From the NCBI GenBank assembly GCA_949879795.1, contig CATLBR010000011.1, forward strand, positions 1 to 64,000: a DNA stretch of 64,000 nt, in the 5' to 3' direction. The notes beneath the pieces are model-generated. The model was not told the origin of the DNA and did not search any database. It saw only the letters and a list, made by a program, of their open reading frames with translations. Source of the stretch: an uncultured Hungatella sp. GTDB taxonomy: Bacteria; Bacillota; Clostridia; Lachnospirales; Lachnospiraceae. Position numbers and translations under genes: made by a program. This document shows, piece by piece, positions 3,946-20,783 of the stretch (the stretch's first letter is position 1; the number at the start of each line of letters is the position of its first letter).

Positions 3946-4965
3946 TTATCTGCGTCCGGTCTCCCTGTCGCTTTCCATGAGCCTGCTGTGCTCCTTGATA
4001 TAAGCTCCGATCTCATCGGCTCTTGTAAATGCCAGCGCGATGTAGCTGTCAGCCGCGCCGTAGTAGATGGCGATTCTCCCGTCCGACGGATCGCAGAGTG
4101 TGGCGCATGGGAAACAGACATTTGCCACAAATCCTCTCTCCTCGTACCACTCCTCCGGAGTCAGGAGGAAATCCTCGCACCGGTATCTGACGATCGAAGG
4201 ATTGTCCAGATCCAGGATGGCGCCGCCGATGCTGTACACATACCCGTTGCAGGTGCTGCTGACTCCGTGATAGAAAAGCAGCCACCCTTCATCGGTCTCG
4301 ATAGGCGCCGCCCCGCCTCCGATTTTTAAGGACTGCCACCACTCCTCCCCTTTTCCCATGACATGGCGGTGTTTCCCCCAGTATGTCATGTCCGGGCTCT
4401 CGCTGAGAAAAATGTCTCCGAAGGGCGTATGGCCGCTGTCGCTGGGGCGGGACAGAAGCATAAAATTCCCCCCTACTTTTCTGGGAAACAGAACCGCGTT
4501 TCTGTTAAACGGGAGAAACGGATTTTCCAACCGCTGAAACGACTTAAAATCTCTTGTCACTGCCATGCCGATGGCTGCCCCGTAAAAATCCTGACACCAC
4601 ATAATATAGTAGGTGTCCTCCACCTTCACAAGCCTGGGGTCATAGGCATATGGGGGCATAAACTCCCGTCCGTCTTCATCTGTAAAATGAATTTTCTCTT
4701 TCTCAAAATCCCAGCGGATGCCGTCTTTGCTTCTCCCCAGATAGATGTAGGGCACCCCGTTGACCTGCTCTCCCCGGAACACACCGATAAATCCGTCTTC
4801 AAAGGGTACCACGGCGGAGTTGAATATCCTGCTCACTCCCTTTATTGGGTTTCTCCCCACCACAGGATTGTCCCTGTATCTCCACACCGGCGCATTCTCA
4901 GGCTTTTTTTCCTGCTCCTGCCACGGCATATTTTTAATCTCGGGCGCAATAAGTTTCATATCCAT
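3946..4965 (-). CDS. GH130 beta-1,4-mannooligosaccharide phosphorylase
   Basis: A 339-residue cytoplasmic glycoside phosphorylase without a signal peptide. It shows the five-bladed propeller signatures of GH130: NPVVGRNP near 33-40, FNSAVVPFEDGFIGVFRGE (48-66), and AYDPRL near 107-112, whose Asp is the family's proton donor. The length (about 330) matches subfamily GH130_2 (mannooligosaccharide phosphorylases) better than the longer GH130_1 mannosylglucose enzymes, but this is a judgement without alignment. The enzyme uses phosphate to remove the non-reducing mannose, giving alpha-mannose-1-phosphate. GGAGG lies six bases before the ATG. It sits between GH36 and the phosphohexomutase in one minus-strand group, which supports an intracellular mannan-degradation role. 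Confidence 0.88.
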   Translation of the reverse strand: MDMKLIAPEIKNMPWQEQEKKPENAPVWRYRDNPVVGRNPIKGVSRIFNSAVVPFEDGFIGVFRGEQVNGVPYIYLGRSKDGIRWDFEKEKIHFTDEDGREFMPPYAYDPRLVKVEDTYYIMWCQDFYGAAIGMAVTRDFKSFQRLENPFLPFNRNAVLFPRKVGGNFMLLSRPSDSGHTPFGDIFLSESPDMTYWGKHRHVMGKGEEWWQSLKIGGGAAPIETDEGWLLFYHGVSSTCNGYVYSIGGAILDLDNPSIVRYRCEDFLLTPEEWYEERGFVANVCFPCATLCDPSDGRIAIYYGAADSYIALAFTRADEIGAYIKEHSRLMESDRETGRR

Positions 4966-4994
4966 ATATCCTCCTCATCTTCTTATTTTCTATA

Positions 4995-7265
4995 TCATCC
5001 CACCCTGGTAAAATGGTACATCACACTGACAAAATCGCCTTTCATCCGGGGAACCAACAATCCCCCGTACATCAACAGGGCCCCTTTATATATCTTCCCG
5101 TCCATCGAAGGCAGGGTAACCTTCTCGTCAGAATCCAGCATGGAGAACTCCTCCTTCCTGCATTCTTCGTCTTCTTCCTCCAGCCGGTACTCCGCCTCCG
5201 GGGCCAGTCCCTTCAGGTATATTTTCCTGCTTCTCTGGTTGGGCTCCGCGAGGACCTGGACATATGTCACCAGGGCTTCATCCTTTTCTTTGGACACCAC
5301 CTGCCAGCAGTCATACCGGTGATTCTCGGACCAAGAGGCGATCCGGTAATAATCCCCCTCCCGAACCAAAGGCTGGAAACGGTGGTACATCTCCACCTGC
5401 TCCTGGATCATATTTTTCTCATCTTCCGACAGCCTGGTGATATCCAGCTCATACCCAAAAGTTCCCGCCATGGCCACATGCCCACGGGTCTCAAAAGGCG
5501 TGATGCGCCCCACAATGTGATTGGGGCACGCGCTTACGTGGGCGCCCATGGCCCCCAGAGGATAAAGAAGGGCTGTTCCCTCCTGTATGGCCAGGCGTTC
5601 AACCGCATCCATATCATCGGAGCACCAGATCTGCGGGCTGTAGTAGAGCATCCCCGGGTCGAACCTGGCTCCCCCGCTGGCGCAGTTTTCCAGCAGAAGA
5701 TCCGGAAATTCCCTGTGAAGCCTCTCCTGCAGCTCATACACTCCCAATATATACCTGTGAAACAGTTCGCCCTGATGCTCCCGCCCCAGACAGCAGCCTC
5801 CCACATCGGTCATCTGCCGGTTCATATCCCATTTTACATAAGAAATAGGAGCGCTTTTCAATATTTCCGAAACAGACTGCCAGACATAGTCAACCACCTC
5901 CTGCCTGGAAAGATCCAGCACGTACTGGGCCCTGCTCTGGACAGGTTCTCTTCCCGGTATATGCATAGCCCAGTCAGGGTGCTCCCTGTACAAATCGGAG
6001 TCCGGAGACACCATCTCAGGCTCAAACCAGATGCCGAACTCAATTCCCAGCTTCTTTACCTCCTCCACAAGACAGGGAAGTTTTTCCGGGATTTTCTTTT
6101 CGTTTACCTTCCAGTCACCCAGAGAGCCTGCAGGCTCATTGCGTTGTCCAAACCACCCATCGTCCAAAACCAGCATCTCGATTCCCCGCTCAGCCGCTTC
6201 CCTCGCTATCTCCAGAAGCCTGCGGGAATCAAAATCAAAATAAGTTGCTTCCCAGTTGTTGATGAGAATAGGCCGCTTTTTGTGAAGATATGAACTGCGG
6301 ATCAGATGCCCCCTGTACAGATCATGGAAAATACGGGTCATCTTCCCAAGTCCCTGGTCTGAGTAGACGCACACCACCTCCGGCGCCGTAAAGGACTCTC
6401 CCTGACCCAGCACCCACTCGAAGCCCTCCGGGTTGATGCCCATGAGCATCCTGACGCTGCCGAACTGGCTCAGCTCCGCCTCCGCCACAAAATTGCCTGA
6501 ATAGACAAAATGCATGGCGTAGACGTCGCCCCTGTCCTGTCCCGCATCCCGTCCCATCACCGCCAGAAACGGGTGATCCTGGTGGCCCGACTCTCCTCTG
6601 CAGGAAGAAACCATCTGCTTCCCAAAACACAGAGGTCTGCGCACCATGTGGCGCTCCCGCGCCCAGGAACCTCCCAGGGTAAGCAGATCCACATCTTCCC
6701 CGTCCATATCCATGCAGGCTGTCAGCACTTTCTCCAGGTACAGGGGCTGCTGCCCTTCGTTGATCAGTTCAACGCTCCGAACCACCGCAGGACTGTCCGC
6801 AAATACGCTGTACCGCAAAATCACCTTCAACCCCAGAACATGGTCCCGGCAGTCCAGCTCCAGCGTCGCGGCCTTTCCCTCTTTTCCCCCGGCTTCAAAC
6901 GTGGCGGGCAGCCCCGGCAGTCTCGGCTTGCCGTCCAAAATCCGATGTCCCTCATAGTGCAGCTCGCATCCTCTGTAACCGTCGGCGGAGCGCACCCTCA
7001 GACAGCTCTCCCGGTAATCCCCGACTCCCCATGTGGAGTATTCCCACGGAAAACAATCGGCAAAAGAACCTTTGTCTTTGATATTGTTGGAAGGGACAAA
7101 GGGTTTCTCATCCGTCCTCATAAGATAACCGCACCTGCTGTCGTCTATCTTTCTGCCATAGTAAACATGGCCCACATACACCCCATCGGCAATACCGATG
7201 ACGTATTCCGTATCCTGGGCAGTCAGCCGAAATAATCCTTCATTCTTCAAATATTCAATTCCCAT
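4995..7265 (-). CDS. GH36 alpha-galactosidase, cytoplasmic
   Basis: A 756-residue GH36 enzyme, the usual length for the bacterial tetrameric type. It has the N-terminal beta-supersandwich, then a TIM barrel with LVLDDGWFG (365-373), the nucleophile Asp480 in YVKWDMNR, ENCASGGARFDPG (526-538), and the acid/base Asp550 in CSDDMDA. No signal peptide is present, so it acts on imported oligosaccharides. In this locus the likely job is to strip alpha-1,6-galactose branches from galactomanno-oligosaccharides before phosphorolysis by GH130. An AGGAAG site precedes the ATG. It starts the second half of the locus: a strong terminator (7381-7412) separates it from the 2306-residue gene upstream. No clear own promoter was found in 7266-7380, so it may depend on read-through. 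Confidence 0.93.
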   Translation of the reverse strand: MGIEYLKNEGLFRLTAQDTEYVIGIADGVYVGHVYYGRKIDDSRCGYLMRTDEKPFVPSNNIKDKGSFADCFPWEYSTWGVGDYRESCLRVRSADGYRGCELHYEGHRILDGKPRLPGLPATFEAGGKEGKAATLELDCRDHVLGLKVILRYSVFADSPAVVRSVELINEGQQPLYLEKVLTACMDMDGEDVDLLTLGGSWARERHMVRRPLCFGKQMVSSCRGESGHQDHPFLAVMGRDAGQDRGDVYAMHFVYSGNFVAEAELSQFGSVRMLMGINPEGFEWVLGQGESFTAPEVVCVYSDQGLGKMTRIFHDLYRGHLIRSSYLHKKRPILINNWEATYFDFDSRRLLEIAREAAERGIEMLVLDDGWFGQRNEPAGSLGDWKVNEKKIPEKLPCLVEEVKKLGIEFGIWFEPEMVSPDSDLYREHPDWAMHIPGREPVQSRAQYVLDLSRQEVVDYVWQSVSEILKSAPISYVKWDMNRQMTDVGGCCLGREHQGELFHRYILGVYELQERLHREFPDLLLENCASGGARFDPGMLYYSPQIWCSDDMDAVERLAIQEGTALLYPLGAMGAHVSACPNHIVGRITPFETRGHVAMAGTFGYELDITRLSEDEKNMIQEQVEMYHRFQPLVREGDYYRIASWSENHRYDCWQVVSKEKDEALVTYVQVLAEPNQRSRKIYLKGLAPEAEYRLEEEDEECRKEEFSMLDSDEKVTLPSMDGKIYKGALLMYGGLLVPRMKGDFVSVMYHFTRVG

Positions 7266-7311
7266 GCCTCATTTCTTCCTTTCTATATCTCGGGCTTTTA
7301 CTTTATGAGTC

Positions 7312-7335: not shown

Positions 7336-7380
7336 GTTGACAGCTGTAAGAAATGTCAAATCTGTCTGCCGCTTTCTAAG

Positions 7381-7412
7381 AAAAGGGACGCCGCCCCCGC
7401 GGCGCCCCTTTT
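7381..7412 (-). terminator. Terminator after the 2306-residue gene
   Basis: A 14-bp stem (plus arms 7381-7394 and 7399-7412, one mismatch) made of a GC-rich core flanked by A/T runs. On the minus strand it reads AAAAGGGGCGCCGC, a four-base loop, then the other arm ending CCCTTTT and CTTAG. It lies just past the stop at 7420 and splits the locus into two transcription blocks unless read through. Confidence 0.8.
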
Positions 7413-7419
7413 TAAAACT

Positions 7420-10400
7420 TTATTCTTCTGCTTCTTCCTTTTTCCTGGCGGGACGTTCTTCCGCCAGGGCCGCCTCGGTTCCCGACAATGTTCCGGCTTT
7501 TGTCTCACCCTCATCCTCATCGTTTTTTTCTTCTGCGCTCATGTAATCTATGATTACCTGGCTTCCGTCCATCTCCAGCACTGTCACCGCGATCAGGCCT
7601 GACCTGGGTTTTCCTGTCCACCGTATCACGGCCATATCGTCCTGGTCACTCTCGTAGATTCCGTCCCCGCCGTCTCTGACAGCATCGGAGGCCGTGGCCT
7701 TTCTGCGCCTGCGCAACGCATTGGAACCGGTGGCGTCTGTCTCATCCGCCTCCTCAATCATCACCAGGAAATAGCCGTCGGAGAACAGTTCCATATCTAC
7801 TGCCACTTCCTGGCCTTCCCGGTAGTCCTCACAGTAGTCCGCCAGATCCAGAATGATGGTTTCCGGTTCTGTGAATGTGTGGATTAAGTCATCTTTCGAG
7901 ATAAAGTCGGTCAGGGATATGAGGAAGGCAGGTTCTTCCGCCTTCTCTACCGTGATGCTGTCAATGTCCACTCCCGTGGAATCATCCGCCATCCACCAGA
8001 TGGATACGCTCACCGCATCTCCCGACGGCATTGTGCTCCACTCGAATGTGGCTTTCTCTCTCTCGTCCGTCGCGTTGGAGCCAAAGCTGTTTCCGTCGTT
8101 CGCCTTTTTCCAGCTGTAGCCGTTTTCAGACGCCGGGTCCACCACATTCCCTTCCAGGATTCCGTTAAATCCTTTATCAGAACTCAGCTCCACCCTAATC
8201 TTTACCTGGTCCTGGCCAGCCGCGTAGTCTGCTAAGTACTCTCCCAGCTTCAGGGGATAACTGTCATATCCTCCGCCTGCATTCTTCTCGTTCACAAAGG
8301 TATGGATCGGAGTCTTCTCCGGTTCCTTCTCTTCCCTCACTACCGTGATGCTGTCAATATCCACTCCCGCAGAACCGTCTGCCATCCACCAGATAGATAC
8401 GCTCACCGCATCTCCCGACGGTATCGTGCTCCACTCGAATGTCGCTTTCTCTCCCCCGTCCGTCGCGCTGGAGCCAAAGCTGTTCCCATCATTGGCCTTC
8501 TCCCATCTGTAGCCGTTTTCGGACGTTTCGTCCACCACATTTCCTTCCAGGATTCCGTTGAACCCTTTATCCGAACTCAGTTCCACCGTAATCTTTACCT
8601 GATCCTGGCCAGCCGCGTAGTCTGCTAAGTACTCTCCCAGCTTGAGGGAATAGCTGTCATACCCGTCGTTTGCGTTCTTCTGGTTCGCAAAAGTATAGAT
8701 CGGGGTCTTCTCCGGTTCCTTCTCTTCCCTTACTACCGTGATGCTGTCAATATCCACTCCCGCAGAATCGTCCGCCATCCACCAGATGGATACGCTCACC
8801 TCGTCTCCCGACGGTATCGTGCTCCACTCGAACGTCGCTTTCTCTCTCCCATCCGTCGCACTGGAGCCAAAGCTGTTCCCGTCGTTCGCCTTCTTCCAGC
8901 TGTAGCCGTTTTCGGACGTTTCGTCCACCACGTTTCCTTCCAGGATTCCGTTGAAGCCTTTGTCCGAACTCAGCTCCACTGTAATCTTTACCTGATCCTG
9001 GCCAGCCGCGTAGTCTGCTAAGTACTCTCCCAGCTTGAGGGAATAGCTGTCATATCCGTCGTTTGCGTTCTTCTGGTTCGCAAAAGTATGGATCGGGGTC
9101 TTCTCCGGTTTTTTCTCTTCCCTCACTACCGTGATGCTGTCAATATCCACTCCCGTGGAATCGTCCGCCATCCACCAGATGGATACGCTCACTGCGTCTC
9201 CCGACGGCATCGTGCTCCACTCGAATATCGCACACTCTCTCCCGTCCGTCGCGCTGGAGCCAAAGCTGTTTCCGTCGTTCGCCTTTTTCCAGCTATAGCC
9301 GTTTTCGGACGTTTCGTCCACCACGTTTCCTTCCAGGATTCCGTTAAATCCTTTATCAGAACTCAGCTCCACCGTAATCTTTACCTGGTCCTCGCCAGCC
9401 GCGTAGTCCGGCAGGTAGTCTGACAGCTTCAGGGAATAGCTGTCATATCCTCCATCCTGGTTCTTCTGGCTCGAGAAAGTATAGATTGGTTTCGTCTCCT
9501 GCTCGCCCTTCTTCACAATCTCCACCGTCACGCTCACCAGCTTCAGCGGCAGCTTGCTGTCGTCCCCTGCCTGGATACTCACGTTGTCCGCGGTCGGCGT
9601 CGTCTCCAGGCTGATGCTCTTTCCTGTGGACAGGATCTCCTTCTCTTCCTCCACATCCGAGTTCACCATCAGCTTCGCCTGGGACTCTTTGTCAAATGTG
9701 GCCGTGATCCTCACACGATCCCCCACCTCATAGCCTTCACAGTGACTGGATATGGCTGCGTTGTACGTGTCGTTCTCCGCCCCCCATGCATGCTCAAAGG
9801 TGTAAATCGCCTCCACCGGCTTCTCCTGCTCGCCCTTCTTTATAATCTCCACCGTCACGCTCACCAGCCCCAGGGGCAGCTTGCTGTCATCTCCCGCCTG
9901 GATGCTCACACTGTCCGTGGTCGGCGTCGTCTCCAGGCTGATGCTCTTTCCTGCGGACAGGATCTCCTTCTCTCCCTCCACATCCGAGTTCACCATCAAT
10001 TTCGCCGTGGATTCCTTGTCGAATGTGGCCGTGATCTTCACCCGGTCGCCCACTTCATATGTCTTGCAATAGTCAGATATGGGCGCGCTGTAGGTGTCGT
10101 CGTTCTGACCCCACGTATTTTTGAAAACATAGATGAGATCCGGTTTCGGTTTCTCGTCCGGCTTCGGTTTCTCGTCCTTCTTCTGCTCCACTTTCACCGA
10201 CAGCAGATTCACCGCCGCGTTCCCGTTCATATCCATAATCTGGATATTCATGTAATCGTTGGCCGGCGTGATGGTCTTTGTGAGGACCTTCACCGCCTGG
10301 CTTCCCTCCGCGTTGGTGTAGCCGTTCTCCCCGTTGTAGCCGATCTGCGCTTTCACATCATTGTCAAAGGTCAGCGTCACCACAGTCTCCAGACCCGGTT

Positions 10401-13400
10401 CAAAGCCGCTGTTGTAAGCGCCGAACGATGTCTCAAATCCGGTCCACTCGGCCATAAACCTGTGGATTCCCTTCACCGGTTCCGCCTTCTTCACAATCTC
10501 CACCGTCACATCCAGAAGCCTCAGAGGCAGCTTGCCGTCGTCTCCTGCCTGGATGCTCAGGTTATCTGTGCCGGGAGTGGTCTCCAGAGTGATCCTGGGG
10601 CCTACGGCAGTGATCTCGCCTTCTCCCTCCACGCCGGAAGTCACCATCAATTTCGCCTGGGAGGCCTTGTCGAACACCGCTGTGATCCGCACTCTGTCTC
10701 CCACCTGGTATTCCTCCTTGCAGTGGCCGGATATGGGAGCGCTGTAGGTGTCGTCCTCCCCGCCCCACGAGTGGGTAAAGGTGTAAATCGCCTCCACGGT
10801 CTGGACCGCCTGGATTTTCAGAAGGTTCGCCGCCGAATTGCCGTTCATATCATGCATCCACACAGTCAGTCTGTCGTCTGCAGGAGTGATTGTCCATGTA
10901 AATGTCTTCCCGGGTGCATTCCCCTTCTCTTCTGCCGTCCCTGCGCCCTCCTTGCTGTACCGGATGCCTGCCGTCACCTCTTTGTCAAACGTCAATGTCA
11001 CCGTCACAGGTTTTCCCTGGACAAATGTATCCAGATACTGGCTGAAGCTGAAATTCAGTTCTTTCTTATCTCCCGTAAATGTGCCCAGGATTTCCTGTTC
11101 CTGTTCCACTTTCACACCGACAAGTTTCACCGTGCTGTTTCCGTTCATATCGGCGATTCCTATGGACAGGCTGTCGTCGGAAGGCGTGACGGCTGTGGTA
11201 AATGTTTTACCTGTGCCTTCGCCCTCCGCCCGGGTCCAGTCCGGAGAATTGTAGTCCACATAAGCCTTCACATCCGCGTCAAAAGTCAGCGTCACTTTTG
11301 TCTTCTTTCCTGCCCTGTAGTCTTTGTTGTAGGCGCTGAACGTGGTGTCAAAGCCGTTCCATGCCCCCCGGAACACCTTGACGGCGCCGCTCTGGCTGTC
11401 AAAACATCCTTCTTCGCCGTACACGATGACAAATTTGGAGAATTTGCTGCTGGCAAATGTGACCGTGTTGGGATTTCCGTCCAGATCCTCCAGGAAATCC
11501 GCCGCTTGGTCGTGGAAACGCACCACCGCGAACTCATAGCCCTTTCCCTGCAGTTCTCTCGGAACAGGCATCTTAAACTTTATGGGGTCCTCGGTCTGAG
11601 TCACCTCCGTCCTGCTTTCGCCTTCCTGCTTATATATGGTAATATCCGATGCCCTGGCAATTTTTATGCTCCCCGGTTCACCTTCTGCCAGAGCCTGTAT
11701 CCTGCTCTCCTCCTCCTGGGAGACCTGACTGTTCTCCACGGAGATTGCCACCCTCACGCCTCTGTCGATCTCCTCCTTGGTCAGCACCGCGGTTCCCGCT
11801 TCCCTCAGAGACAAGGCCAGCATGCCGTCTTCGTACTGTCCTTCCACGGACACGATATCGTTAAAGTTGGGTTTTCCCTCAATCTCCACCTTGATGTTCA
11901 GGATCTTTACATGGCTGACTCTTGAAGGCAGCTCCCCAAGCTGGATGCCCACGTAATCGTCGTCCGGCCTGCCGGTTCTGGAAATACTTTCCGAACTCTG
12001 ATAATCCGTCACATTCCATTTCCCGTCTATATTGAAAGCAATGGCAAGGGGCGCCGGCTTATCAAATTCCGTCGTAACCTTCACCGTATCTCCCACCTGG
12101 TAGTCGGAATGCCATTTGCTCAGTTTGGTGCTAAATCCGCTCCACGAGGAGGTGAGCACCGCGATGGGCTCCTCTTCCAGAGTCTTATCCTGCTTTACCA
12201 CCTTCACCTCGGTGACTTTCATCTCGCCGTCGCCGGAGCTGATCTGCATGTTGCTGATCTCCTGGGGAATCAGATAGAACGCCAGAGCGTCCTGGATATC
12301 CCTGTAGGAAAATACTGCCTTCCCGTCTTTCACATAGGTGGGCGCCACTCCCTGCTGCTGTCCGTCGCTGGTGGTAAACTGCAGGCTGGGTTCCACCCCT
12401 TCTTCTGCCTCATAGGACACAACCAGATAGATTCCCTCTTCCAGTTTTTTCACGATCTCTTCCCAGTTTTCCACGTCTCCCCACTGCCATGAATCCAGGG
12501 TGAGGTTCTGGGGATAGATATCTCCGGTCTTATCGGCCACATCCTTATAAACAGTCCGGTTGGGTGAGTTGTAGTCGCTCTCCTTCTCCACTCTGGGTTT
12601 TTTCTCGTCTCCCGGGTCGCTCACCTTCTTATCCGAGATCCATATGTTGGTGATCCTCACATCATTGTAGGCGGAGAGCTGAATGGAATCCACTTTGGCA
12701 TCCCAGCTGATTCCCATCATATTCCGGAACACGTCCATGCGCATGCTGACAACATGTTTCCTGGTGCAGTCTTTCTCCGAAAGTTTATAGCTCTTTCCGT
12801 TTTTCCACTCTCCGTTCACGGAGGCTCCCCATGTGAGCACCGTCCAGCCTTCATGGCCGTAGGAGGGTCCCATATACTCCACACACAGGTATTTCTCGTC
12901 TGGCGTATCCAGCATCCGCTCGATATCCCCGCAGACCCAGGACTGGTTGGGCAGCCCGTCCTTGAACATAGACTCCTCTCTGGGAATCTCCGAACCTACA
13001 TGCAGCGTCAGTTCCTCGATCTTTCCGTCGCTGTAAGCTCCAAGATTCAGGTAGGATACATTGCTCTCGGAGGTTATCTTCATCATCCTCCTGAGATATT
13101 TGACGCTGAAGGTCTGTGTCACCTTCTTAGCAGAGTCCTCGCTGTCCGCGCTGTAGCCCGGGCCGTTGACCCACTCTCCGTCCACGCTGGCTCCCCATCC
13201 CAGGATTCCCCAGTTCTCATGCTCTGCCGCGCTGGAGTAGGTCAGGGTGATCCAGTCCGTATCCGCGCAGTCCAGAATCCATCCGTCGTCAGTCTCATAC
13301 TGCTGGTTGGCTTCCCCTGCAAACAGCAGGTAGTCCCCCGGCTCACTGTACCGGGTACTTGCCAGACGCCCGCCGCCGTGGGCCGATACGCCCGGTCCCT

Positions 13401-14340
13401 TTTTCAGGATATCCACGCTGACAGAGACTACGCCGATCTTATAGTTGGCCCACATATCCGTGATCTGAATGTTCAGATAGTCATTGTCCGGCGTCATCTC
13501 CCTTGTTATGGACTGACCGTCCCCGGTGAGAGAAGTCCACTGGCCGTCTATATTCATGCCCAGCTGGCTGGACACGTACTTGCTGTAGTTTACGGTCACC
13601 CGCACCTGATCACCCGGCTCATAGTCCGGATTAAAATCAGAAAATTTCGTCTCGTAACCCTGCCACAGCCCTGTAAACTTGTGGAGATAGGTTCCTGTGT
13701 CCGCCTCCCCTTTCCTGACGATCTCCACGGAGATATGGGTCAGGTTCACGCTGGGAAGCCCTTTCAGATCCGATATCTGAATATTCAGGTAATCGCTGTC
13801 CGGCACCAGGGTGATATTCCTTTTCTTTCCCTCGCCTCTGAAAGAGTTCCAGGCCCCGTCGATGTAAAGTCCGATCTGGCTGGTGACTGATTTGTTAAAA
13901 GAAAGCTGGATTCGAACCTCGTCCCCCGGTTCATACCCTTCTATATAGTCGGTGAGTTTGCACTCGTAACCTACCCACAGACTTGTAAACTCGTGGAGAC
14001 AGCGGGTGTCCTCTTCTTTCTCATCCTCCGCGAGGATACTCTCTGTCTCTTCCTGGCTTTCTGCCTCACTCGAGCCGCCGCTCTCTTCTGCCGCGGCTCC
14101 CGACTCGTCGGCTCCTTTCGCCTCACCGGATTCCTGCATTTCCCCAATATTCTCTGATGCTGTCCCGCCGGCGGGCTCTGCCTGGGTTTCCGCCTCGGCT
14201 GCCGCTCTGGTCTCCTCGATCAGCTGTCCGGCAGAGGCCATGCTGACCCCTCCGGAAGTCACCGCCAGAGCTATACAGAGCGCCATGGACATGGACCGTT
14301 TCGCCACCATGCTCTCCCAAAGATTTGAGAAATGCCTCAT
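7420..14340 (-). CDS. Giant secreted multimodular repeat protein of the mannan locus
   Basis: A 2306-residue secreted protein with no recognised catalytic domain. A signal peptide (1-37, cleavage likely after ASA) is followed by an acidic low-complexity linker (38-103), then a chain of about 95-130-residue beta-rich modules. Type A (105-210, 218-315, 727-822, 987-1080, 1083-1180, 1293-1386) shares a start like F..W.GYET..S.Y and an end like VSVEIVKKG. Type B (about 330-450, 452-570, weaker 595-715) shares WGASV(D/N)GEW. Type C (1183-1285, 1402-1502, 1512-1613) shares DDTYSAPIS and QAGDD.KLPL. Type D is four near-identical 131-residue repeats (1619-2142). A divergent end module follows (2150-2270). 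The modules resemble carbohydrate-binding beta-sandwiches, but I cannot assign a CBM family. No LPXTG, SLH, dockerin or C-terminal membrane segment is visible, so the mode of surface attachment is unknown. It starts 13 bases after the GH26 stop with GAGGAGG upstream, so it is probably co-transcribed. A role in holding mannan at the cell surface is inferred. Confidence 0.85.
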   Translation of the reverse strand: MRHFSNLWESMVAKRSMSMALCIALAVTSGGVSMASAGQLIEETRAAAEAETQAEPAGGTASENIGEMQESGEAKGADESGAAAEESGGSSEAESQEETESILAEDEKEEDTRCLHEFTSLWVGYECKLTDYIEGYEPGDEVRIQLSFNKSVTSQIGLYIDGAWNSFRGEGKKRNITLVPDSDYLNIQISDLKGLPSVNLTHISVEIVRKGEADTGTYLHKFTGLWQGYETKFSDFNPDYEPGDQVRVTVNYSKYVSSQLGMNIDGQWTSLTGDGQSITREMTPDNDYLNIQITDMWANYKIGVVSVSVDILKKGPGVSAHGGGRLASTRYSEPGDYLLFAGEANQQYETDDGWILDCADTDWITLTYSSAAEHENWGILGWGASVDGEWVNGPGYSADSEDSAKKVTQTFSVKYLRRMMKITSESNVSYLNLGAYSDGKIEELTLHVGSEIPREESMFKDGLPNQSWVCGDIERMLDTPDEKYLCVEYMGPSYGHEGWTVLTWGASVNGEWKNGKSYKLSEKDCTRKHVVSMRMDVFRNMMGISWDAKVDSIQLSAYNDVRITNIWISDKKVSDPGDEKKPRVEKESDYNSPNRTVYKDVADKTGDIYPQNLTLDSWQWGDVENWEEIVKKLEEGIYLVVSYEAEEGVEPSLQFTTSDGQQQGVAPTYVKDGKAVFSYRDIQDALAFYLIPQEISNMQISSGDGEMKVTEVKVVKQDKTLEEEPIAVLTSSWSGFSTKLSKWHSDYQVGDTVKVTTEFDKPAPLAIAFNIDGKWNVTDYQSSESISRTGRPDDDYVGIQLGELPSRVSHVKILNIKVEIEGKPNFNDIVSVEGQYEDGMLALSLREAGTAVLTKEEIDRGVRVAISVENSQVSQEEESRIQALAEGEPGSIKIARASDITIYKQEGESRTEVTQTEDPIKFKMPVPRELQGKGYEFAVVRFHDQAADFLEDLDGNPNTVTFASSKFSKFVIVYGEEGCFDSQSGAVKVFRGAWNGFDTTFSAYNKDYRAGKKTKVTLTFDADVKAYVDYNSPDWTRAEGEGTGKTFTTAVTPSDDSLSIGIADMNGNSTVKLVGVKVEQEQEILGTFTGDKKELNFSFSQYLDTFVQGKPVTVTLTFDKEVTAGIRYSKEGAGTAEEKGNAPGKTFTWTITPADDRLTVWMHDMNGNSAANLLKIQAVQTVEAIYTFTHSWGGEDDTYSAPISGHCKEEYQVGDRVRITAVFDKASQAKLMVTSGVEGEGEITAVGPRITLETTPGTDNLSIQAGDDGKLPLRLLDVTVEIVKKAEPVKGIHRFMAEWTGFETSFGAYNSGFEPGLETVVTLTFDNDVKAQIGYNGENGYTNAEGSQAVKVLTKTITPANDYMNIQIMDMNGNAAVNLLSVKVEQKKDEKPKPDEKPKPDLIYVFKNTWGQNDDTYSAPISDYCKTYEVGDRVKITATFDKESTAKLMVNSDVEGEKEILSAGKSISLETTPTTDSVSIQAGDDSKLPLGLVSVTVEIIKKGEQEKPVEAIYTFEHAWGAENDTYNAAISSHCEGYEVGDRVRITATFDKESQAKLMVNSDVEEEKEILSTGKSISLETTPTADNVSIQAGDDSKLPLKLVSVTVEIVKKGEQETKPIYTFSSQKNQDGGYDSYSLKLSDYLPDYAAGEDQVKITVELSSDKGFNGILEGNVVDETSENGYSWKKANDGNSFGSSATDGRECAIFEWSTMPSGDAVSVSIWWMADDSTGVDIDSITVVREEKKPEKTPIHTFANQKNANDGYDSYSLKLGEYLADYAAGQDQVKITVELSSDKGFNGILEGNVVDETSENGYSWKKANDGNSFGSSATDGREKATFEWSTIPSGDEVSVSIWWMADDSAGVDIDSITVVREEKEPEKTPIYTFANQKNANDGYDSYSLKLGEYLADYAAGQDQVKITVELSSDKGFNGILEGNVVDETSENGYRWEKANDGNSFGSSATDGGEKATFEWSTIPSGDAVSVSIWWMADGSAGVDIDSITVVREEKEPEKTPIHTFVNEKNAGGGYDSYPLKLGEYLADYAAGQDQVKIRVELSSDKGFNGILEGNVVDPASENGYSWKKANDGNSFGSNATDEREKATFEWSTMPSGDAVSVSIWWMADDSTGVDIDSITVEKAEEPAFLISLTDFISKDDLIHTFTEPETIILDLADYCEDYREGQEVAVDMELFSDGYFLVMIEEADETDATGSNALRRRRKATASDAVRDGGDGIYESDQDDMAVIRWTGKPRSGLIAVTVLEMDGSQVIIDYMSAEEKNDEDEGETKAGTLSGTEAALAEERPARKKEEAEE
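7915..9486 (-). repeat. Four tandem 393-bp coding repeats
   Basis: Four in-frame units of exactly 131 codons begin at residues 1619, 1750, 1881 and 2012 of the giant protein. Units share long identical stretches such as DQVKITVELSSDKGFNGILE and SIWWMADDS. The nucleotide sequence is also nearly identical between units, which points to recent duplication and makes the repeat number likely to vary between strains. Assembly collapse or expansion is possible here. Confidence 0.9.
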
Positions 14341-14353: not shown

Positions 14354-17300
14354 TCACCTTTTTTTCTTCTTCCCTTCCATGATCAAGGCCATCAGGCATC
14401 CCACCGCCGCCAAAGCCACCATTCCCGAAAGTATGGGAAGCAGCCAGGATGCGGCAGAAACCTTCTTCACTGTTCCGGAGGCAGTCTCCGTCTCTTCTGT
14501 GCTGTTATTGCTTTCTTTTTCTTCCCCCGCAGCCTGGGAAGCCGTATCCGCCTCGGTTTCCGTGTCGGCCTCCCTGCCGTCCCCCGTGTCCTTTATCAGG
14601 AACTCCGGTTCTGTCTTTCCCCAGACCACCGCGCGGATATCGTCGTAGTACAGCGCCCCCTGAACCAGTCCGTCGCCGTCTATGGCAGGTGAATCCCCGA
14701 TGGCATTGACCCACAGGCCAAAACCGGATACCCCCGCCGCTGCCTCCTTTGACAGGACTCCCTTTCCGTTTTTATCCTGGAACTCACTGAAAGGCAGGGT
14801 CACCAGGATAGGAGATGTGGTGCCTGCATACTCCGGGTACTCCTGGAGATAGGCCTCATAGGAACCGCCGCCTCCGGTGTTGATCTGCACCACGGTCTTC
14901 TGGTTTTTCCCGTCGGGCTTCACCCAGAACTGCAGCGCGTCGCATCCTGACCAGTCCGCCTCCTTGGGGAATTCGCAGCCCGCCCATCCGGTCCGGGTCT
15001 CCTTGTAGTCAAACTTCAGGGCATACTCCCCGTCATTTCCCATATCGTCAGCCAGGCTGATGCTCATCTCGCACCCGCTGTCCTTGTTGGTGCTCCAGCT
15101 GTCCAGGAGAAGATTGGTCAGCCCTCCGTAAAAGTCGAAGGTATCGATCACCAGGGGATCCTCGGCCATAGGCTCTATATTGCAGATAACCCGAATCTCC
15201 TGAAGTTTCTCCCCGTCTCCGTAGAGTTCGATCTTACCGTCCGCGTCCGGCTCCAGCTCCCCTGCCGCAGCCGCGTCCAGAACAGCCTCCACATATTTCC
15301 CGTCCACCGCGGCCGGTATAACCGTCTCCTTGCCGCCGGCTTTCAAGCGGAATTCCGCCTCCCCTGCTTCCCGGTTCAGCCTGGCCGCCAGCTTGGTCTC
15401 TCCCAGGACTCTGCTGCCCGCCACAGGCTCCGTCATATATCCGCTGACCTGCTCCGGGGAAACCAGAGTGGTGTCTGTCAGATTGCCTGCCAGGATGCTT
15501 TTCAATACCTCTGCCTGGTCGCCGGCAAAGATGCTCCCTTTGTGGTTGTACATGGAGATAAATGAATCCAGCAGCTCGTGTCCGAACACCTTTCCGCCTT
15601 CTCTCCTCTCCACCACGAAGGGCGTATAGTATCCGCCGCTTCTGGCATAGTTGGACCACAGCATAAAGTAACAGCAGTCATATTCCGGTTTCACCATGAT
15701 GTCCAGCATCTCCGTGTACCACCGGGGCCTCCGGTTTCCTGTCTCCGGGATTCCGCCGCTCTTCATGGATGACATACCTGTCTCCGTCACCGCCATGAGC
15801 TTGCCGTGTTCTTTGGCAAATGCGTCGGTCAGTTTCAGAGTATTCTCAAAGTTCTTTAAAAACGTGTATCCCTCCTCATCGGGAGCAGGATTGTTGTCAT
15901 AAGTGTCAAAACCTACCAGATCTACATACTCGTCGCCGGGATACCGCTCCTCGTACTCTTCCAGGCTGGCCGCCTCCGAGCCTGGGCCATAGAGATACAG
16001 CAGGTTGTGGATATCTCTCTCGTCCCTGAGATACTCCACCGTGTATTTATACATACTTTTGTAAGTCTCCGCATCGCAGAAGGCTTTGCCCCACCAGAAC
16101 CAGCTTCCTGTATTCTCGTGGAAAGGACGGAAAAGCACCGGCCCCTTTACCTGGCTTACATAATCTGCTATGAGATCCAGATGGGCTCTGAACGCCTGGT
16201 GAAAGGCTCCTCCCGGCAGAATCTGGTTCATGCAGTCGCCGGTGAGCACATAGGAATCCGCCGGCGAAAAATCGAACCCGTCATAGCTGTTCTCAAACTC
16301 TCCTTCCAGCTTCACCGTGCCTGAAAAGTTGGGCATGTGGCTGGACAGCGTGATCACCGCCCCCCGGTCTATAGCCTCGTTGCTGAACAGGGCCGCAGCC
16401 CTGATATTCCCCTGGTTGGTGTCCGGCAGCTGTTCCCCCGGATGGCGCTGATTGTATTTCTCTGCAAACCCTGCAAACCCTCCTCCGCAGTCCATACCCA
16501 CGATGGCGGCCAGTGAACCTGTCATATCCTCTGTATCCGAATCTGTCAGGTCCCCCGCCCCCGCCTTCAGCACTGTGTCCTCCATGTGTCCGTAGAGGGT
16601 GGCGTCCGATTCCCCCACCGCCTTCAGGTACTGGTACAGCGCAGCCGTGGAGGCGTCCGCCTTCGGATCCGCCAGCTTTATCTCCCCCGCGTAGTCAATC
16701 GAATCTCCGTTGACCGTAAGCGCCCCCCGGCCGCTGGAGACCGCCGTCTGGGTCTTGGCCAAAACCGTGGACTCTACCAGAAATTTTTCCTTTTTCACGT
16801 TGCTCAAGGTGATGTTGTCGATCCACACGCTTCCTCTGTAATCCGTGTATTCGCCCACAAGCAAAATCATCAGTTTTGCCGGTTTCTCCCGACCGGTATA
16901 TTTCTCGTCACAATTCAGCGACAGATTCACCAGCTTCAGCCCGTCTGCGTCCTCCGCGGGTATCTCCTGGATGTTCACGCTCTGATCCCCGAAAATATTG
17001 TCGGAAAAGGCCCTCACCGACAGTTTCCCCGTGGTAAATGCCGACGGGTCATAGTACAGATCAAAATTCAGCGCCTTGTACGGAGAATAGTCGATCCCCT
17101 CCGTCTCTTCCAGGCAGATCCCTGTCTGGCTGTAGCTGTTGTCCGTGTTCAGGGAATAGTCCAGTTCCAGCTTCAGCATCCCCTTAGACGGGTCGTGCTC
17201 ACAGCTTCCCTCTCCCTCATAGCTGTCCCCTGACCAGCTGTCGTCATATACCCATCCCTGGGCTCCTTCTTCAAAATCCCACACTCTCGCCGTCTCCGAA

Positions 17301-17413
17301 GGATCCGTCCCCGGCTCCCCGAAAGCACTCATCGAACCTGCGGGAGAAGCAGCCAAAATCACTGCCAGCATGGCGGCCGCTCCTCGTGGTCTTAAACGTC
17401 TCTTCTTTACCAT
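14354..17413 (-). CDS. GH26 endo-beta-1,4-mannanase, membrane-anchored, with two binding modules
   Basis: A 1019-residue secreted enzyme predicted to cut mannan at the cell surface. Order: signal peptide (1-31), a CBM27-like beta-sandwich (about 41-205, starting VWDFEEGAQGW), a GH26 barrel (about 255-630) with acid/base Glu433 in RPFHENTGSWFWWGK and nucleophile Glu544 in AVTETGMSS, a small beta domain (650-745), a CBM23/27-like module (753-932), an acidic Ser/Thr linker, and a C-terminal membrane segment (989-1012) ending KKKKR. This layout resembles the cell-attached GH26 mannanase known from Roseburia. The start at 17413 has GGAGG five bases upstream; an in-frame codon 33 bases earlier has none. 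The gene follows the second permease after a strong hairpin (17423-17458). Catalytic assignment is firm; the CBM families are assigned by eye. Confidence 0.93.
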   Translation of the reverse strand: MVKKRRLRPRGAAAMLAVILAASPAGSMSAFGEPGTDPSETARVWDFEEGAQGWVYDDSWSGDSYEGEGSCEHDPSKGMLKLELDYSLNTDNSYSQTGICLEETEGIDYSPYKALNFDLYYDPSAFTTGKLSVRAFSDNIFGDQSVNIQEIPAEDADGLKLVNLSLNCDEKYTGREKPAKLMILLVGEYTDYRGSVWIDNITLSNVKKEKFLVESTVLAKTQTAVSSGRGALTVNGDSIDYAGEIKLADPKADASTAALYQYLKAVGESDATLYGHMEDTVLKAGAGDLTDSDTEDMTGSLAAIVGMDCGGGFAGFAEKYNQRHPGEQLPDTNQGNIRAAALFSNEAIDRGAVITLSSHMPNFSGTVKLEGEFENSYDGFDFSPADSYVLTGDCMNQILPGGAFHQAFRAHLDLIADYVSQVKGPVLFRPFHENTGSWFWWGKAFCDAETYKSMYKYTVEYLRDERDIHNLLYLYGPGSEAASLEEYEERYPGDEYVDLVGFDTYDNNPAPDEEGYTFLKNFENTLKLTDAFAKEHGKLMAVTETGMSSMKSGGIPETGNRRPRWYTEMLDIMVKPEYDCCYFMLWSNYARSGGYYTPFVVERREGGKVFGHELLDSFISMYNHKGSIFAGDQAEVLKSILAGNLTDTTLVSPEQVSGYMTEPVAGSRVLGETKLAARLNREAGEAEFRLKAGGKETVIPAAVDGKYVEAVLDAAAAGELEPDADGKIELYGDGEKLQEIRVICNIEPMAEDPLVIDTFDFYGGLTNLLLDSWSTNKDSGCEMSISLADDMGNDGEYALKFDYKETRTGWAGCEFPKEADWSGCDALQFWVKPDGKNQKTVVQINTGGGGSYEAYLQEYPEYAGTTSPILVTLPFSEFQDKNGKGVLSKEAAAGVSGFGLWVNAIGDSPAIDGDGLVQGALYYDDIRAVVWGKTEPEFLIKDTGDGREADTETEADTASQAAGEEKESNNSTEETETASGTVKKVSAASWLLPILSGMVALAAVGCLMALIMEGKKKKR

Positions 17414-17422
17414 GCGCACCTC

Positions 17423-17458
17423 CGCTATTGTGATACAGGGGGGCAAAACGTGTTTTGT
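17423..17458 (-). promoter_or_regulatory. Intercistronic hairpin between permease and GH26 genes
   Basis: A 17-bp inverted repeat (17423-17439 and 17442-17458) with one mismatch and a 2-base loop. No T run follows on the minus strand, so it is more likely an mRNA-processing or stability element, or a partial attenuator, than a full terminator. It could adjust enzyme level relative to the transporter. Confidence 0.6.
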
Positions 17459-17474: not shown

Positions 17475-18323
17475 TTACCCTTTTACAGCTCCTGCCGCCA
17501 TTCCGCCGTACACCTGCCTCTGGAATATGAGGAACAGGATCAGGATCGGAATGATGGTGATGATAACGCCTGCGCAGATGTAGTTGTACTGATTTCCATA
17601 AGGCCCTGTGAATGTGTATAGGGCCGTGGAGATTGTCTTCAGCTCCTGCGACTGAAGGTACAGATTTGAGGCATAGTACTCATTGTACACGCTCACGCCC
17701 TTGAGCAGCAGGGAAGTTATGATGGCAGGCTTTAAAAGCGGGAACAAAATCTTGAAAAACACCCCGAAATATGTACATCCGTCCATGATAGCCGACTCGT
17801 CCAGAGACACCGGCAGATTCTCGAAAAACTGCAGGAAGATGTAGATGGAGATAATGTCCGTTCCCATAAGCACGATCATATACCCTACCAGACGGTTCAC
17901 CAGACCCAGGGAGTACATGATCTGATAAATCGTCACCTGCATGGCGATTCCCGGCAACAGCGCCGCAAACATAAACAGATTCTGCACGATCCCTCTTCCC
18001 GGAAACTTAAACCGGTTCAGCACATAGGCCAGCATGGAACCCATGAACACCGAGGCTGTCAACACTACCACCAGCACCATCCCGGTGTTGAAAAATCCCC
18101 GAAGCATGTTGGCCTTCTGAAAAGCGATGACAAAATTCTCAAAGTTGAAAAACGACTGGGGCAGATCCAGGACCGATGTGGAGGCGTACTCCTCATTGGT
18201 CTTAAACGCCGTGAGAATGCACACACAGACCGGGATCAGGGCGCACAGGGTGGCGCATATCAGGGACGCGTATTTCAAGATCTCGAACAATACGGAAATA
18301 GGTTTTCTTTTTTTCAGCTTCAT
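17475..18323 (-). CDS. ABC sugar transporter permease (MalG/UgpE type)
   Basis: A 282-residue inner-membrane permease with about six membrane segments, beginning near residues 15-37. It carries the cytoplasmic EAA-type loop around SLDESAIMDGCTYFGVFFKI, where the ATPase docks. The C-terminus GGMAAGAVKG is typical of sugar permeases of this class. Its ATG overlaps the TAA of the preceding permease by one base (TAATG at 18321-18325), so translation is probably coupled. With the partner permease and lipoprotein it forms a CUT1-type importer, here inferred to import manno-oligosaccharides. No ATP-binding subunit is encoded in the window; a shared MsiK/MsmK-like ATPase elsewhere is likely. Confidence 0.92.
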   Translation of the reverse strand: MKLKKRKPISVLFEILKYASLICATLCALIPVCVCILTAFKTNEEYASTSVLDLPQSFFNFENFVIAFQKANMLRGFFNTGMVLVVVLTASVFMGSMLAYVLNRFKFPGRGIVQNLFMFAALLPGIAMQVTIYQIMYSLGLVNRLVGYMIVLMGTDIISIYIFLQFFENLPVSLDESAIMDGCTYFGVFFKILFPLLKPAIITSLLLKGVSVYNEYYASNLYLQSQELKTISTALYTFTGPYGNQYNYICAGVIITIIPILILFLIFQRQVYGGMAAGAVKG

Positions 18324-19330
18324 TATACTGCCGCTCCCTTCTGAGCGTTTTTCCTGCGCTCTTCTCTCTTTCTCTTTCTCACTGCCGCCTTGGACTCGTC
18401 GTCGGTCCCGTTGTCAAACACATAGGCAAAGAACAGTTTCTGAGCCACTGTGCAGATGATGATGATCACCAGAAGCACGATAGCCATGGCGCAGGCCAGA
18501 CCTACTTTCTGATTCTCATGGGCAAGGCGGTTCATAATTACAAAATAGGTTCCTGTACCCATGGTTCCGTTGGTGATAACATAGGGCGGCTCGAAAGCGC
18601 TCAGGGAACCGCTGATGGAGAGGATCAGATTCAGCACCACGATGGACTTGATGCTTGGCAGGATGATGTAGATAAACCTGTGCCAATTGTTGGCGCCGTC
18701 CAGGGCTGCCGCCTCGTAGAGGTCGTTGTCCACGGACATCATGGCGCCCAGAAACATGATCATGTTCTGCCCCGTATATCTCCAAACGGAGGTGGCTGCC
18801 AGAGCGAAGTTGTTGATACTCTGATCCTGAAGCCAGTAGGGAATGTCCTCCAGGCTCATCCCGAACATCTGCAGCAGAGAATCGAGGACGAATCCCCTGG
18901 CGTAGAAAAACTTAAAGATAAATCCCACGGCAATACCGCAGATCAGATAGGGGAAAAACATGGCCGCCTTGAACACGGACTCGCCCTTCACTTTGAACAC
19001 CATCATGGTGGCGAAGAACAGGGCCAGACCCAGCTGCACCACCGCGCCTCCCATGTAGTACACGCTGACAAGGAGGGCCCTGAAAATCTCCGGCCTGTTG
19101 AACACATCCACATAGTTGGCCAGACCCACAAATTTCTTGGGGCCGATATACTTCATATTGTAGAAACTGAACTGCACCATCTTCATAAACGGCAGATATG
19201 TAAATACGATGAGAAGCAGCAGGGGCGCAAACAAAAATGTCACGATCACCAGCATCTGCTGTACTTTCCTGCTCTTAAACTTCTCCGCGAATGTCTTCTG
19301 ACCCACAGCCGTGCCTGCACTTTTACCCAT
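18323..19330 (-). CDS. ABC sugar transporter permease (MalF/UgpA type)
   Basis: A 335-residue integral membrane protein and partner of the downstream MalG-type permease. Membrane segments begin near 30-55 (MLVIVTFLFAPLLLLIVFTY). The EAA loop is visible as YEAAALDGANNWHRFIYIILP. The last 20 or so residues are very basic. The ATG at 19330 is preferred: GGAGG lies seven bases upstream, while the GTG one codon earlier is too close. It lies 12 bases after the lipoprotein gene in the same operon. CUT1 family membership is clear; the substrate (manno-oligosaccharide) is inferred from the GH26/GH36/GH130 genes alongside. Confidence 0.92.
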   Translation of the reverse strand: MGKSAGTAVGQKTFAEKFKSRKVQQMLVIVTFLFAPLLLLIVFTYLPFMKMVQFSFYNMKYIGPKKFVGLANYVDVFNRPEIFRALLVSVYYMGGAVVQLGLALFFATMMVFKVKGESVFKAAMFFPYLICGIAVGFIFKFFYARGFVLDSLLQMFGMSLEDIPYWLQDQSINNFALAATSVWRYTGQNMIMFLGAMMSVDNDLYEAAALDGANNWHRFIYIILPSIKSIVVLNLILSISGSLSAFEPPYVITNGTMGTGTYFVIMNRLAHENQKVGLACAMAIVLLVIIIICTVAQKLFFAYVFDNGTDDESKAAVRKRKREERRKNAQKGAAV

Positions 19331-19342
19331 CACGTGTCCTCC

Positions 19343-20719
19343 TTAGTTTTCCAGTATGCTCACTCCCAGATTCTCTTGAGCTGCAGACCACTTGGCATTC
19401 CATTCACCCATGATGGTGTCCAGGTCCTTTGTCTTGTAAAGGGCGGCCTCCAGGATCTCACAGTCAGGATAGTCGTTGTTGTTGACTCCCACCTCGCTCT
19501 CGTTGTTCACCTCGTCAAACAGGGTCTCCTCCCCTTCCGGCGACGGGTTGTTGCTCAGGATCTCCACGCCGTCAAACTCAGACAGGGAATCCGGAAGCGG
19601 TTCGGATTTCAGAGCGGGGATCGTTCCCTCATCCTTGAATATGGGAGACTCCTCCAGAAGCCACTTCAGATATACCATAGCCGCGATCTGGTTGTCGCCC
19701 GTGGCCTTGTTGTTGATGGCGTAGGCATAATTTCCGTCTCCGGAGGCGTAGCGCTTGCCGCCCACCGTGATGGGGAACGGCATGTAGCCGATGTCCTCAG
19801 GGGTGGAACCTGAGGCCTTGCACTGATCCACGGCCCAGGAGCCAAGCACCATAGACGCGATCTCACCCTTGTTGATCAGACCCTTGGAGGACTCCCAATC
19901 GGTGCTGGCCGGGTCATCCTCCACCAGCCCTCTGCTCACCGCCTCATAGAGTACATAGTACACGGCGTAGGGGCCGGTCATGTCGTCTCTCCTGGCAAAT
20001 GGGTCCTTGGTGTGGACGATAGTATTGTTCATAAAGTCCGGGTCGCCGGTTGCGGAGATTCCGATGTACTGATCCCAGGCGCCCATGGGCCAGCCTGCGG
20101 AGAAGTTGGTGTACAGCGGCACCGCGTCGGTGTTGTCCTTGATCTGCTGCAAGCAGTCCAGAAACTGGTCCGGCGTGGAGGGAAGCTCTGTGATCCCCGC
20201 CTCCTTCCATATTCTCTTGTTGTAGATGACACCTCCCGCTGTTCCGCCGTTGGGAATCCCGTACTGGAGGCCGTTATAATTCTTGTCCGCCAGGAAGTTG
20301 TAGATACCGTCCAGTGTCTTGTAGTCTCCCAGGGGAGAGAAGTACTCAGACATCTCACTCTTGCTGACAGATGTGGGAATATAGCAGATATCTCCCCAGT
20401 CGCCTGTGGGAAGGCGAAGGTTGAGAGACTGCTCATAATCCGTAAGTCCCTCATACTCCACGGTAATGTTGGGATAAAGTTTCATAAATTCCTCCGCGTA
20501 CCCCTTGTACACCGTGTCCACCACGTCGGTCCGGTTGGTCAATATCTTGATGGAAGCCGTGATATCCTGATAGTCCTCCCCCAGTTTGATAGCGTCTATG
20601 GTAGGCAGTTCCACTGCAGTTCCCCCTGCCTCTCCTTTTCCTGAACCGCCGCATCCTGCCGCCAGAGAACCTGCCAGCACTGCTGCCATTGTCAGAGCAA
20701 CCACTTTTTTAGTTTTCAT
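19343..20719 (-). CDS. ABC transporter sugar-binding lipoprotein
   Basis: A 458-residue extracellular solute-binding protein of the CUT1/family 1 type, anchored by a lipid on Cys23 of the lipobox LAAGC. A Gly/Ser/Glu-rich linker precedes the binding domain, which shows the usual sugar-binding features: ITVEYEGLTDYEQSLNLRL near the start and GNYAYAINNKATGDNQIAAM later. It is the first gene of the operon and has a sigma-A promoter at 20755-20783. The ATG at 20719 is chosen because GAAGGGTGG lies about eight bases upstream; an in-frame GTG 12 bases earlier overlaps that site. Inferred to capture manno-oligosaccharides released by GH26. Confidence 0.92.
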   Translation of the reverse strand: MKTKKVVALTMAAVLAGSLAAGCGGSGKGEAGGTAVELPTIDAIKLGEDYQDITASIKILTNRTDVVDTVYKGYAEEFMKLYPNITVEYEGLTDYEQSLNLRLPTGDWGDICYIPTSVSKSEMSEYFSPLGDYKTLDGIYNFLADKNYNGLQYGIPNGGTAGGVIYNKRIWKEAGITELPSTPDQFLDCLQQIKDNTDAVPLYTNFSAGWPMGAWDQYIGISATGDPDFMNNTIVHTKDPFARRDDMTGPYAVYYVLYEAVSRGLVEDDPASTDWESSKGLINKGEIASMVLGSWAVDQCKASGSTPEDIGYMPFPITVGGKRYASGDGNYAYAINNKATGDNQIAAMVYLKWLLEESPIFKDEGTIPALKSEPLPDSLSEFDGVEILSNNPSPEGEETLFDEVNNESEVGVNNNDYPDCEILEAALYKTKDLDTIMGEWNAKWSAAQENLGVSILEN

Positions 20720-20754
20720 AACTTTATCCACCCTTCTTTTTTAATGTTTATTTA

Positions 20755-20783
20755 ATTATAATATCATATTAATTTAATTTCAA
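20755..20783 (-). promoter_or_regulatory. Promoter of the mannan ABC/GH26 operon with putative operator
   Basis: On the minus strand TTGAAA (20783-20778), a 17-bp spacer, then TATAAT (20760-20755). The spacer holds the 12-mer ttaaattaatat (20777-20766), which also occurs in the lacI promoter at 22238-22227. Since a LacI-type gene lies next door, this shared sequence is a candidate operator, although it lacks the central CG of most LacI-family sites and the region is AT-rich. Confidence 0.7.

Follow-up and report, generated by a model that had tools for sequence, protein, structure and literature searches.

In Bacteroidota, surface glycan-binding proteins (SGBPs) are non-catalytic, are encoded with enzymes and belong, as lipoproteins of the outer membrane, to SusCD-type systems. 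The ways in which Gram-positive gut bacteria, lacking SusCD systems, hold polysaccharide are, to our knowledge, not well understood. Two arrangements for mannan are described in the accessible part of PMC6385246: in Bacteroides ovatus, binding and catalysis are distributed over separate surface proteins, and in Roseburia intestinalis the carbohydrate-binding modules (CBMs) are carried by the enzyme RiGH26 itself, in the order CBM27-GH26-CBM23 followed by immunoglobulin (Ig)-like domains. The locus analysed here lies in a 64,000-nucleotide stretch (the window; contig CATLBR010000011.1 of assembly GCA_949879795.1) from an uncultured Hungatella sp. of the Lachnospiraceae. It resembles the RiGH26 system (Bacillota, Clostridium cluster XIVa) in its extracellular GH26 with CBMs of its own, ABC importer, GH36 and GH130, but differs in also encoding a separate large modular protein, here called MOD. 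No separate binding protein is mentioned in the part of PMC6385246 available, which fits an earlier interpretation made from the letters alone (the sequence-only reading), according to which Roseburia employs an anchored GH26 and an importer without such a protein. MOD is probably a carbohydrate-binding array that is secreted, has no catalytic part and represents the binding half of the mannanase on a polypeptide of its own, and it would gather beta-mannan for GH26 and the importer. This reading is based on the pairing of MOD with GH26, a fusion of the two in a relative, modules shared with GH26 and GH5 enzymes, the CBM-like predicted fold of two module types and the operon layout.

The MOD open reading frame (ORF) is uninterrupted from an ATG preceded by a Shine-Dalgarno-like GGAGG, and a spacer of 13 nt separates it from GH26 (GH26 ORF end at 14354, MOD ATG at 14340). 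By self-comparison and profiles, the stretch from residue 112 to 2272 was resolved into 18 modules belonging to five sequence types, in the order A-A-B-B-C-A-D-A-A-A-A-A-A-E-E-E-E-E, with nine A, two B, one C, one D and five E modules, the last of which is degenerate and was named F. A and E are distant sequence relatives (phmmer E down to 4e-6). A Trp is conserved among the A modules (residue 226 in A2), and the B modules have an invariant Trp. Among E1-E4, protein identity is 83-95%, with Ks of 0.23-0.51 and Ka/Ks of 0.09-0.27, and these ratios show the E repeats to be maintained by selection. The only hydrophobic stretch of MOD is N-terminal (residues ~17-37) and no lipobox was seen by eye in the signal sequence, nor was any further transmembrane (TM)-like segment or LPXTG motif found in MOD or in the MOD proteins of 13 other loci, of which those of L059, L061 and L071 are truncated at a contig end. 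For MOD, the Pfam matches listed to E 10 (HMMER filters remove most of those above ~0.1) included no domain of catalytic, SLH, dockerin or cohesin type, and NCBIfam gave no match up to E 1. The neighbouring GH26 is well defined by PF02156 (129 bits) and by its match to the mannan endo-1,4-beta-mannosidase 4yn5 in the PDB (E 1.6e-47); a CBM_11-type domain also exceeds the Pfam cutoff and a C-terminal TM segment begins at residue 996. The sequence-only reading had described a secreted protein of 2306 residues with a signal peptide, free of catalytic motif, LPXTG, SLH, dockerin and C-terminal TM segment, starting 13 bases after a GH26 with its own anchor and CBM, and all of this was borne out; it had also counted about sixteen beta-rich modules of at least four types, where the modularity and the minimum number of types stood, with five types found, and the count had to be raised to 18.

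A scan of a genome collection yielded 13 MOD loci, five of them on contigs of five members of the genus, so that with the window 14 genomes with GH26 and MOD on separate polypeptides (split genomes) were available; L051, L052, L053, L054 and L055 are the same contigs, with the same ORFs, as L066, L065, L068, L067 and L071, respectively, and each pair was counted once. Genome names such as Lapin presumably indicate rabbit, and D16-56, 1XD21-29 and MGBC mouse; the strains D16-56 and 1XD21-29 are cultured relatives. A GH26 gene or its remnant lies directly 5' of MOD in all 14 split genomes. The contig of L065 carries the GH26 tail only, and in G004 the tail adjoins MOD with most of GH26 on a different contig. 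In L060 (7773-9805) GH26 seems broken, two ORFs matching GH26 residues 12-322 and 667-1030 ahead of an intact MOD; the middle part is covered by no listed ORF, through either a real loss or an assembly error. Within the genus, MOD occurs in 6 of 26 genomes, and the GH26 query at E <= 1e-50 found seven of the 26, namely the six with MOD (at least 54% identity) and G023 (41%); G002 has a second GH26 copy of 42% identity. The core A-A-B-B-C-A-D is identical in 13/13 MOD proteins of sufficient length, L071 being cut after A-A-B-B-C, and the A/E repeat tails vary, giving 13-18 modules in the 11 uncut proteins. Core Ka/Ks values were 0.05-0.13 in six ortholog pairs (a seventh pair, the sole comparison involving the window protein, was saturated), and GH26 gave 0.06-0.17 in five of the same six pairs. 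Judged by these substitution ratios, the MOD core is under purifying selection, and the component singled out as noteworthy in the sequence-only reading is real and well conserved. Scans at differing E cutoffs and with overlapping genome draws found module A in 3/299 genomes of the family and 1/392 of the order, B-B-C in 8/397 of the family and 1/388 of the phylum, and E-like modules in 5/387 of the family. The single order and phylum matches were the window's own genome, so that no MOD module was matched outside the Lachnospiraceae in the order (A) and phylum (B-B-C) scans.

The enzyme and its putative binding partner are joined covalently in G160, a genome of another genus of the same family and the one fused case seen. 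The first 540 residues of its 2278-aa ORF match GH26 residues 405-950, and residues 593-1970 match MOD residues 342-1629 with the module order B-B-C-A-D-A8. The N-terminal part of this GH26 lies in a separate ORF, owing to an apparent frameshift. This does not affect the junction of the C-terminal half with the modules, which is one uninterrupted frame. A tree built from the C-terminal half of GH26 (22 rows, 16 of them different) placed G160 (row L056) with the 16 split-GH26 rows (support 100/99), its position within the group being tentative, and the five rows of other GH26s fell apart from this group, with a long-branch warning for L056 and L095; by phmmer against the window GH26, the L056 half scored 1e-54 and the other GH26s 1.6e-17 or worse.

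Outside MOD, module B was found in seven proteins of the 397 family genomes, the G160 fusion and L091-L096 (L091, L092, L093, L094, L095 and L096). In L094 and L095 it is carried by GH26 enzymes with lipoprotein-like starts and in L092 by a GH5 with Big_2 domains; Pfam recognized nothing in the B-carrying proteins L091, L093 (at a contig end) and L096. GH26 or GH5 enzymes thus account for four of the seven carriers, or three of six without the fusion. A/E-like modules occur as well in L091, in L093 and in two GH5 proteins, L058 of the window's own genome and L057 of G160. These GH5 enzymes (L058:7254-13559, 2101 aa; L057:7028-12232, 1734 aa) also have further modules without a label and end in long acidic tails rich in Lys and Glu; that of L058 adjoins a choline-binding-repeat protein of 494 aa, and that of L057 an ORF of like size and start. 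The L091 protein (4490-7870, 1126 aa) combines one B module, two A/E modules and further unnamed repeats with what by eye is a hydrophobic N-terminal segment, and is another glycan-binding candidate. At L096:6355-8751 there is a row of three ORFs (188-194 aa) with alike signal-like starts and a B-like module in at least the first.

The fusion bears on whether MOD might be a scaffold that assembles GH26 and other proteins by protein-protein contacts. The operon pairing and the many modules would suit such a function, and module D, which lacks Trp, could be structural; however, the Pfam list contained no cohesin or dockerin, and docking would be needless in G160, where GH26 and modules are one chain, so that we regard a scaffold as improbable. 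Of the mannan-capturing or scaffolding function proposed in the sequence-only reading, capture for GH26 is the part that gained support, from the pairing, the fusion, the B modules on GH26 and GH5 and the CBM-like folds, and scaffolding did not.

The nature of the modules was approached through family and fold matches. The sole carbohydrate-related Pfam match of MOD was CBM65_1, which scored 20.4 bits over residues 630-712, short of the cutoff of 25. The B-B-C stretch reached 22.2 bits against the same cutoff, 10 of 14 B-B-C stretches matched CBM65_1 at E <= 0.1, and three of the 14 matched PUD (best E 8.3e-4). As the score lay under the gathering cutoff, membership of module C in CBM65 was rejected. 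All remaining Pfam matches of the whole protein were also below cutoff, the runner-up being Ribosomal_L21e over 21 residues (E 0.0042). Fold evidence covers modules A and B, whose models (pLDDT 97.9 and 95.4) are predicted beta-sandwiches, with CBMs at the top of both VIA lists of structural matches. Module B had as its top structural match the B. ovatus SGBP-B (PDB 6e9b), and its list also includes CBM65. The best fold match of module A was to modules of Ruminococcus flavefaciens Cel5A (5fu2, 5fu3, 5fu4, 5aos and 5aot; 77-80 of 97 residues aligned at 14-17% identity), taken here to be CBM80 modules; PMC10992016 gives the architecture GH5-CBM80-GH5. The A profile gave seven matches among PDB sequences up to E 10 (best E 0.043) with no CBM among them, and membership of module A in CBM80 was accordingly dropped. 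Nothing credible was found among PDB sequences by phmmer of whole MOD or by profiles of A, B-B-C, E, C, B and D. Where the sequence-only reading looked to CBM families for the modules, the predicted folds of A and B are CBM-like, and the sequences remained below the CBM65 cutoff and without a CBM80 link. Since the fold lists also hold CBM36, CBM6, CBM11, CBM22, BcsB, galectin, Cry-toxin and GOLD domains, fold alone cannot name the ligand, and the absence of a family from the lists was not taken as exclusion.

A large, repetitive secreted protein of variable repeat number could also be mainly an adhesin or matrix protein, directed to the host surface or the cell's own wall and sharing only regulation with the mannan operon. 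The A modules do give scattered weak Ig-type and other Pfam matches; the commonest among 82 A modules, Big_12, reached E <= 0.1 in only 4/82, and an Ig-adhesin label was abandoned. A known adhesin family, the counter-case considered in the sequence-only reading, did not appear over the Pfam cutoff in MOD, nor did a wall-anchor domain, and the features of cell-wall-anchored adhesins (LPXTG, SLH, C-terminal TM) are absent from the protein. Together with the GH26 fusion, the B modules on GH26 and GH5 and the leading place of CBMs in both VIA lists, this makes an adhesin highly improbable.

GH26, MOD and the importer genes presumably form one cotranscribed operon. Eight of the 13 loci (L059-L064, L069 and L070) keep the order LacI, solute-binding protein (SBP), permeases, GH26, MOD; in L064, permease 1 is missing from the ORF list, where a longer antisense ORF was kept in its place. 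Between the promoter-like site and the MOD stop there are two weak minus-strand terminator-like sites, inside permease 1 and inside MOD. This region had 5 promoter-like sites against 8.6 in shuffled sequence and 17 terminator-like sites against 12.6, so that conservation alone carries weight. GH36 lies 3' of MOD in six of the eight loci (L060, L062, L063, L064, L069 and L070; L059 and L061 stop within MOD), with GH130 close to it in four (L063, L064, L069 and L070). The contig of L062 stops within GH36, and the remainder of L060 gave no GH130 match.

On the strength of the GH26, GH36, GH130 and importer genes, the ligand of MOD is presumably beta-mannan. Alternatively, the main ligand of MOD might be another cell-wall polysaccharide (xyloglucan, mixed-linkage glucan or cellulose), in which case MOD would tether the cell to plant fibre while GH26 cuts the mannan there. 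According to the available part of PMC10992016, beta-glucan and xyloglucan are ligands of the CBM65 modules in EcCel5A, and the CBM80 entry refers to a cellulase/mannanase and to beta-glucans and xyloglucan; in addition, a B module sits on a GH5 and A/E-like modules on two GH5 proteins. The constant pairing with GH26, the GH36 and GH130 genes near it in several loci and the GH26 fusion speak for mannan instead, and we consider another cell-wall polysaccharide as main ligand unlikely, though the most credible of the alternatives.

In the binding-array reading, the core and the A/E tail would bind beta-mannan-type polysaccharide as CBM-type modules, with repetition turning many weak contacts into avidity, and polysaccharide would be gathered at the cell near the TM-anchored GH26, which would cut it for uptake of the pieces by the ABC importer. 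MOD itself may stay at the surface through polysaccharide common to it and GH26, or through its acidic tail. In the last 60 residues, Asp/Glu outnumber Lys/Arg in 11/11 uncut MOD proteins, the G160 fusion and the two GH5 proteins, and retention by this tail is treated as a lead only. The final 23 residues of the L065-L068 proteins (ETPDIPKNAILP..GDH..) are near-identical mutually and not found in the window MOD; they are possibly a sorting or binding tail. Eighteen extended beta-sandwiches could span some tens of nanometres, perhaps passing the cell wall.

From its sequence, MOD is best placed among the known non-catalytic glycan-binding proteins rather than in CBM65 or CBM80, because neither family test gave a sequence assignment. 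With non-catalytic multi-CBM proteins it shares the architecture and the pairing with a cognate enzyme gene; its binding is predicted. The predicted fold of module B links it to SGBP-B, but unlike the Bacteroidota SGBPs it has no visible lipobox or anchor and is encoded with an ABC importer. EcCel5A of Eubacterium cellulosolvens is approached by module C through a weak sequence match and by B through predicted fold, yet its CBM65 modules are part of a GH5 enzyme (PMC10992016, available part), whereas MOD has no enzyme domain. The CBM80-type modules of Cel5A are likened to module A by predicted fold only; MOD contains nine A modules, no catalytic domain and no sequence-family link to them. Sas20 of Ruminococcus bromii likewise comes from a Gram-positive gut bacterium, is extracellular and multi-domain and binds polysaccharide; as far as the accessible text of PMC9112005 describes it, it binds starch, has two binding domains and resides in amylosomes, in contrast to the 18 modules of MOD, for which no docking part was found. 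No Bacillota mannan locus encoding a giant binding protein apart from the enzyme was described in the literature searched, whose coverage leaves out most subscription papers, nor in the accessible parts of PMC13278490, PMC13003330, PMC5320581, PMC8612152 and PMC13357471; such absence is weak evidence of novelty.

The wider proposal, to which we give about even credence, is that of a split mannanase of gut Lachnospiraceae, in which a catalytic, anchored part and a 13-18-module binding array are two co-inherited proteins, forming a counterpart of the SGBPs with at least two CBM families that are missing from Pfam (A/E and B) and a tail that lengthens and shortens by module duplication. With a dedicated giant binding protein that is paired with a single enzyme, and joined to that enzyme in a relative, the value of keeping binding and cutting apart becomes directly testable; MOD also supplies new candidate mannan-binding modules.

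Table 1. Features of the MOD locus in the window (all on the minus strand).
Feature	Position	Strand	Remark
GH130	3946..4965	minus	mannooligosaccharide phosphorylase family (Pfam)
GH36	4995..7265	minus	alpha-galactosidase family (Pfam)
Terminator-like site	7384..7398	minus	just 3' of MOD; weak, consensus match only
MOD	7420..14340	minus	2306 aa; predicted secreted, non-catalytic modular protein
Acidic C-terminal tail	7423..7524	minus	without anchor motif
Module F, degenerate E	7525..7935	minus	self-comparison/profile
Module E4	7936..8313	minus	self-comparison/profile
Module E3	8323..8706	minus	self-comparison/profile
Module E2	8716..9099	minus	self-comparison/profile
Module E1	9109..9495	minus	self-comparison/profile
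Module A9	9499..9813	minus	self-comparison/profile
Module A8	9829..10137	minus	self-comparison/profile
Module A7	10177..10476	minus	self-comparison/profile
Module A6	10480..10794	minus	self-comparison/profile
Module A5	10801..11097	minus	self-comparison/profile
Module A4	11101..11394	minus	self-comparison/profile
Module D	11413..11871	minus	without Trp; no family match found
Module A3	11872..12171	minus	self-comparison/profile
Module C	12187..12591	minus	CBM65_1-like, under Pfam cutoff
Module B2	12622..12984	minus	self-comparison/profile
Module B1	12985..13365	minus	modelled, pLDDT 95.4
Module A2	13390..13695	minus	modelled, pLDDT 97.9
Module A1	13699..14007	minus	self-comparison/profile
Signal peptide region	14227..14340	minus	residues ~1-38; hydrophobic segment; putative cleavage site
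GH26 beta-mannanase	14354..17446	minus	CBM-like domain, C-terminal TM anchor
ABC permease 2	17475..18323	minus	
ABC permease 1	18323..19333	minus	
Extracellular SBP	19343..20731	minus	
Promoter-like TTGAAA-17-TATAAT	20755..20783	minus	5' of SBP gene; kept in 9/9 aligned loci
LacI-family regulator	21147..22187	minus	

The GH26 start is more likely an ATG at 17413 than the TTG of the ORF list. The available contigs of the five rabbit-type loci showed no importer gene next to GH26-MOD. According to Pfam, a GH2 gene lies 5' of GH26 in L051 and L053; L055 has an ORF whose start closely resembles that gene, L054 a 683-aa fragment there, and a GH36 gene is located 3' in L051 and L052. Between MOD and GH36, L062 (16332-19423) and L063 (16277-20644) have two or three additional ORFs of 400-630 aa, the first of which presumably starts like an HSP90-type protein. 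In the window, a 263-aa DUF7402 protein is encoded at 22260-23051, flanked by the LacI and peptidase M23 genes.
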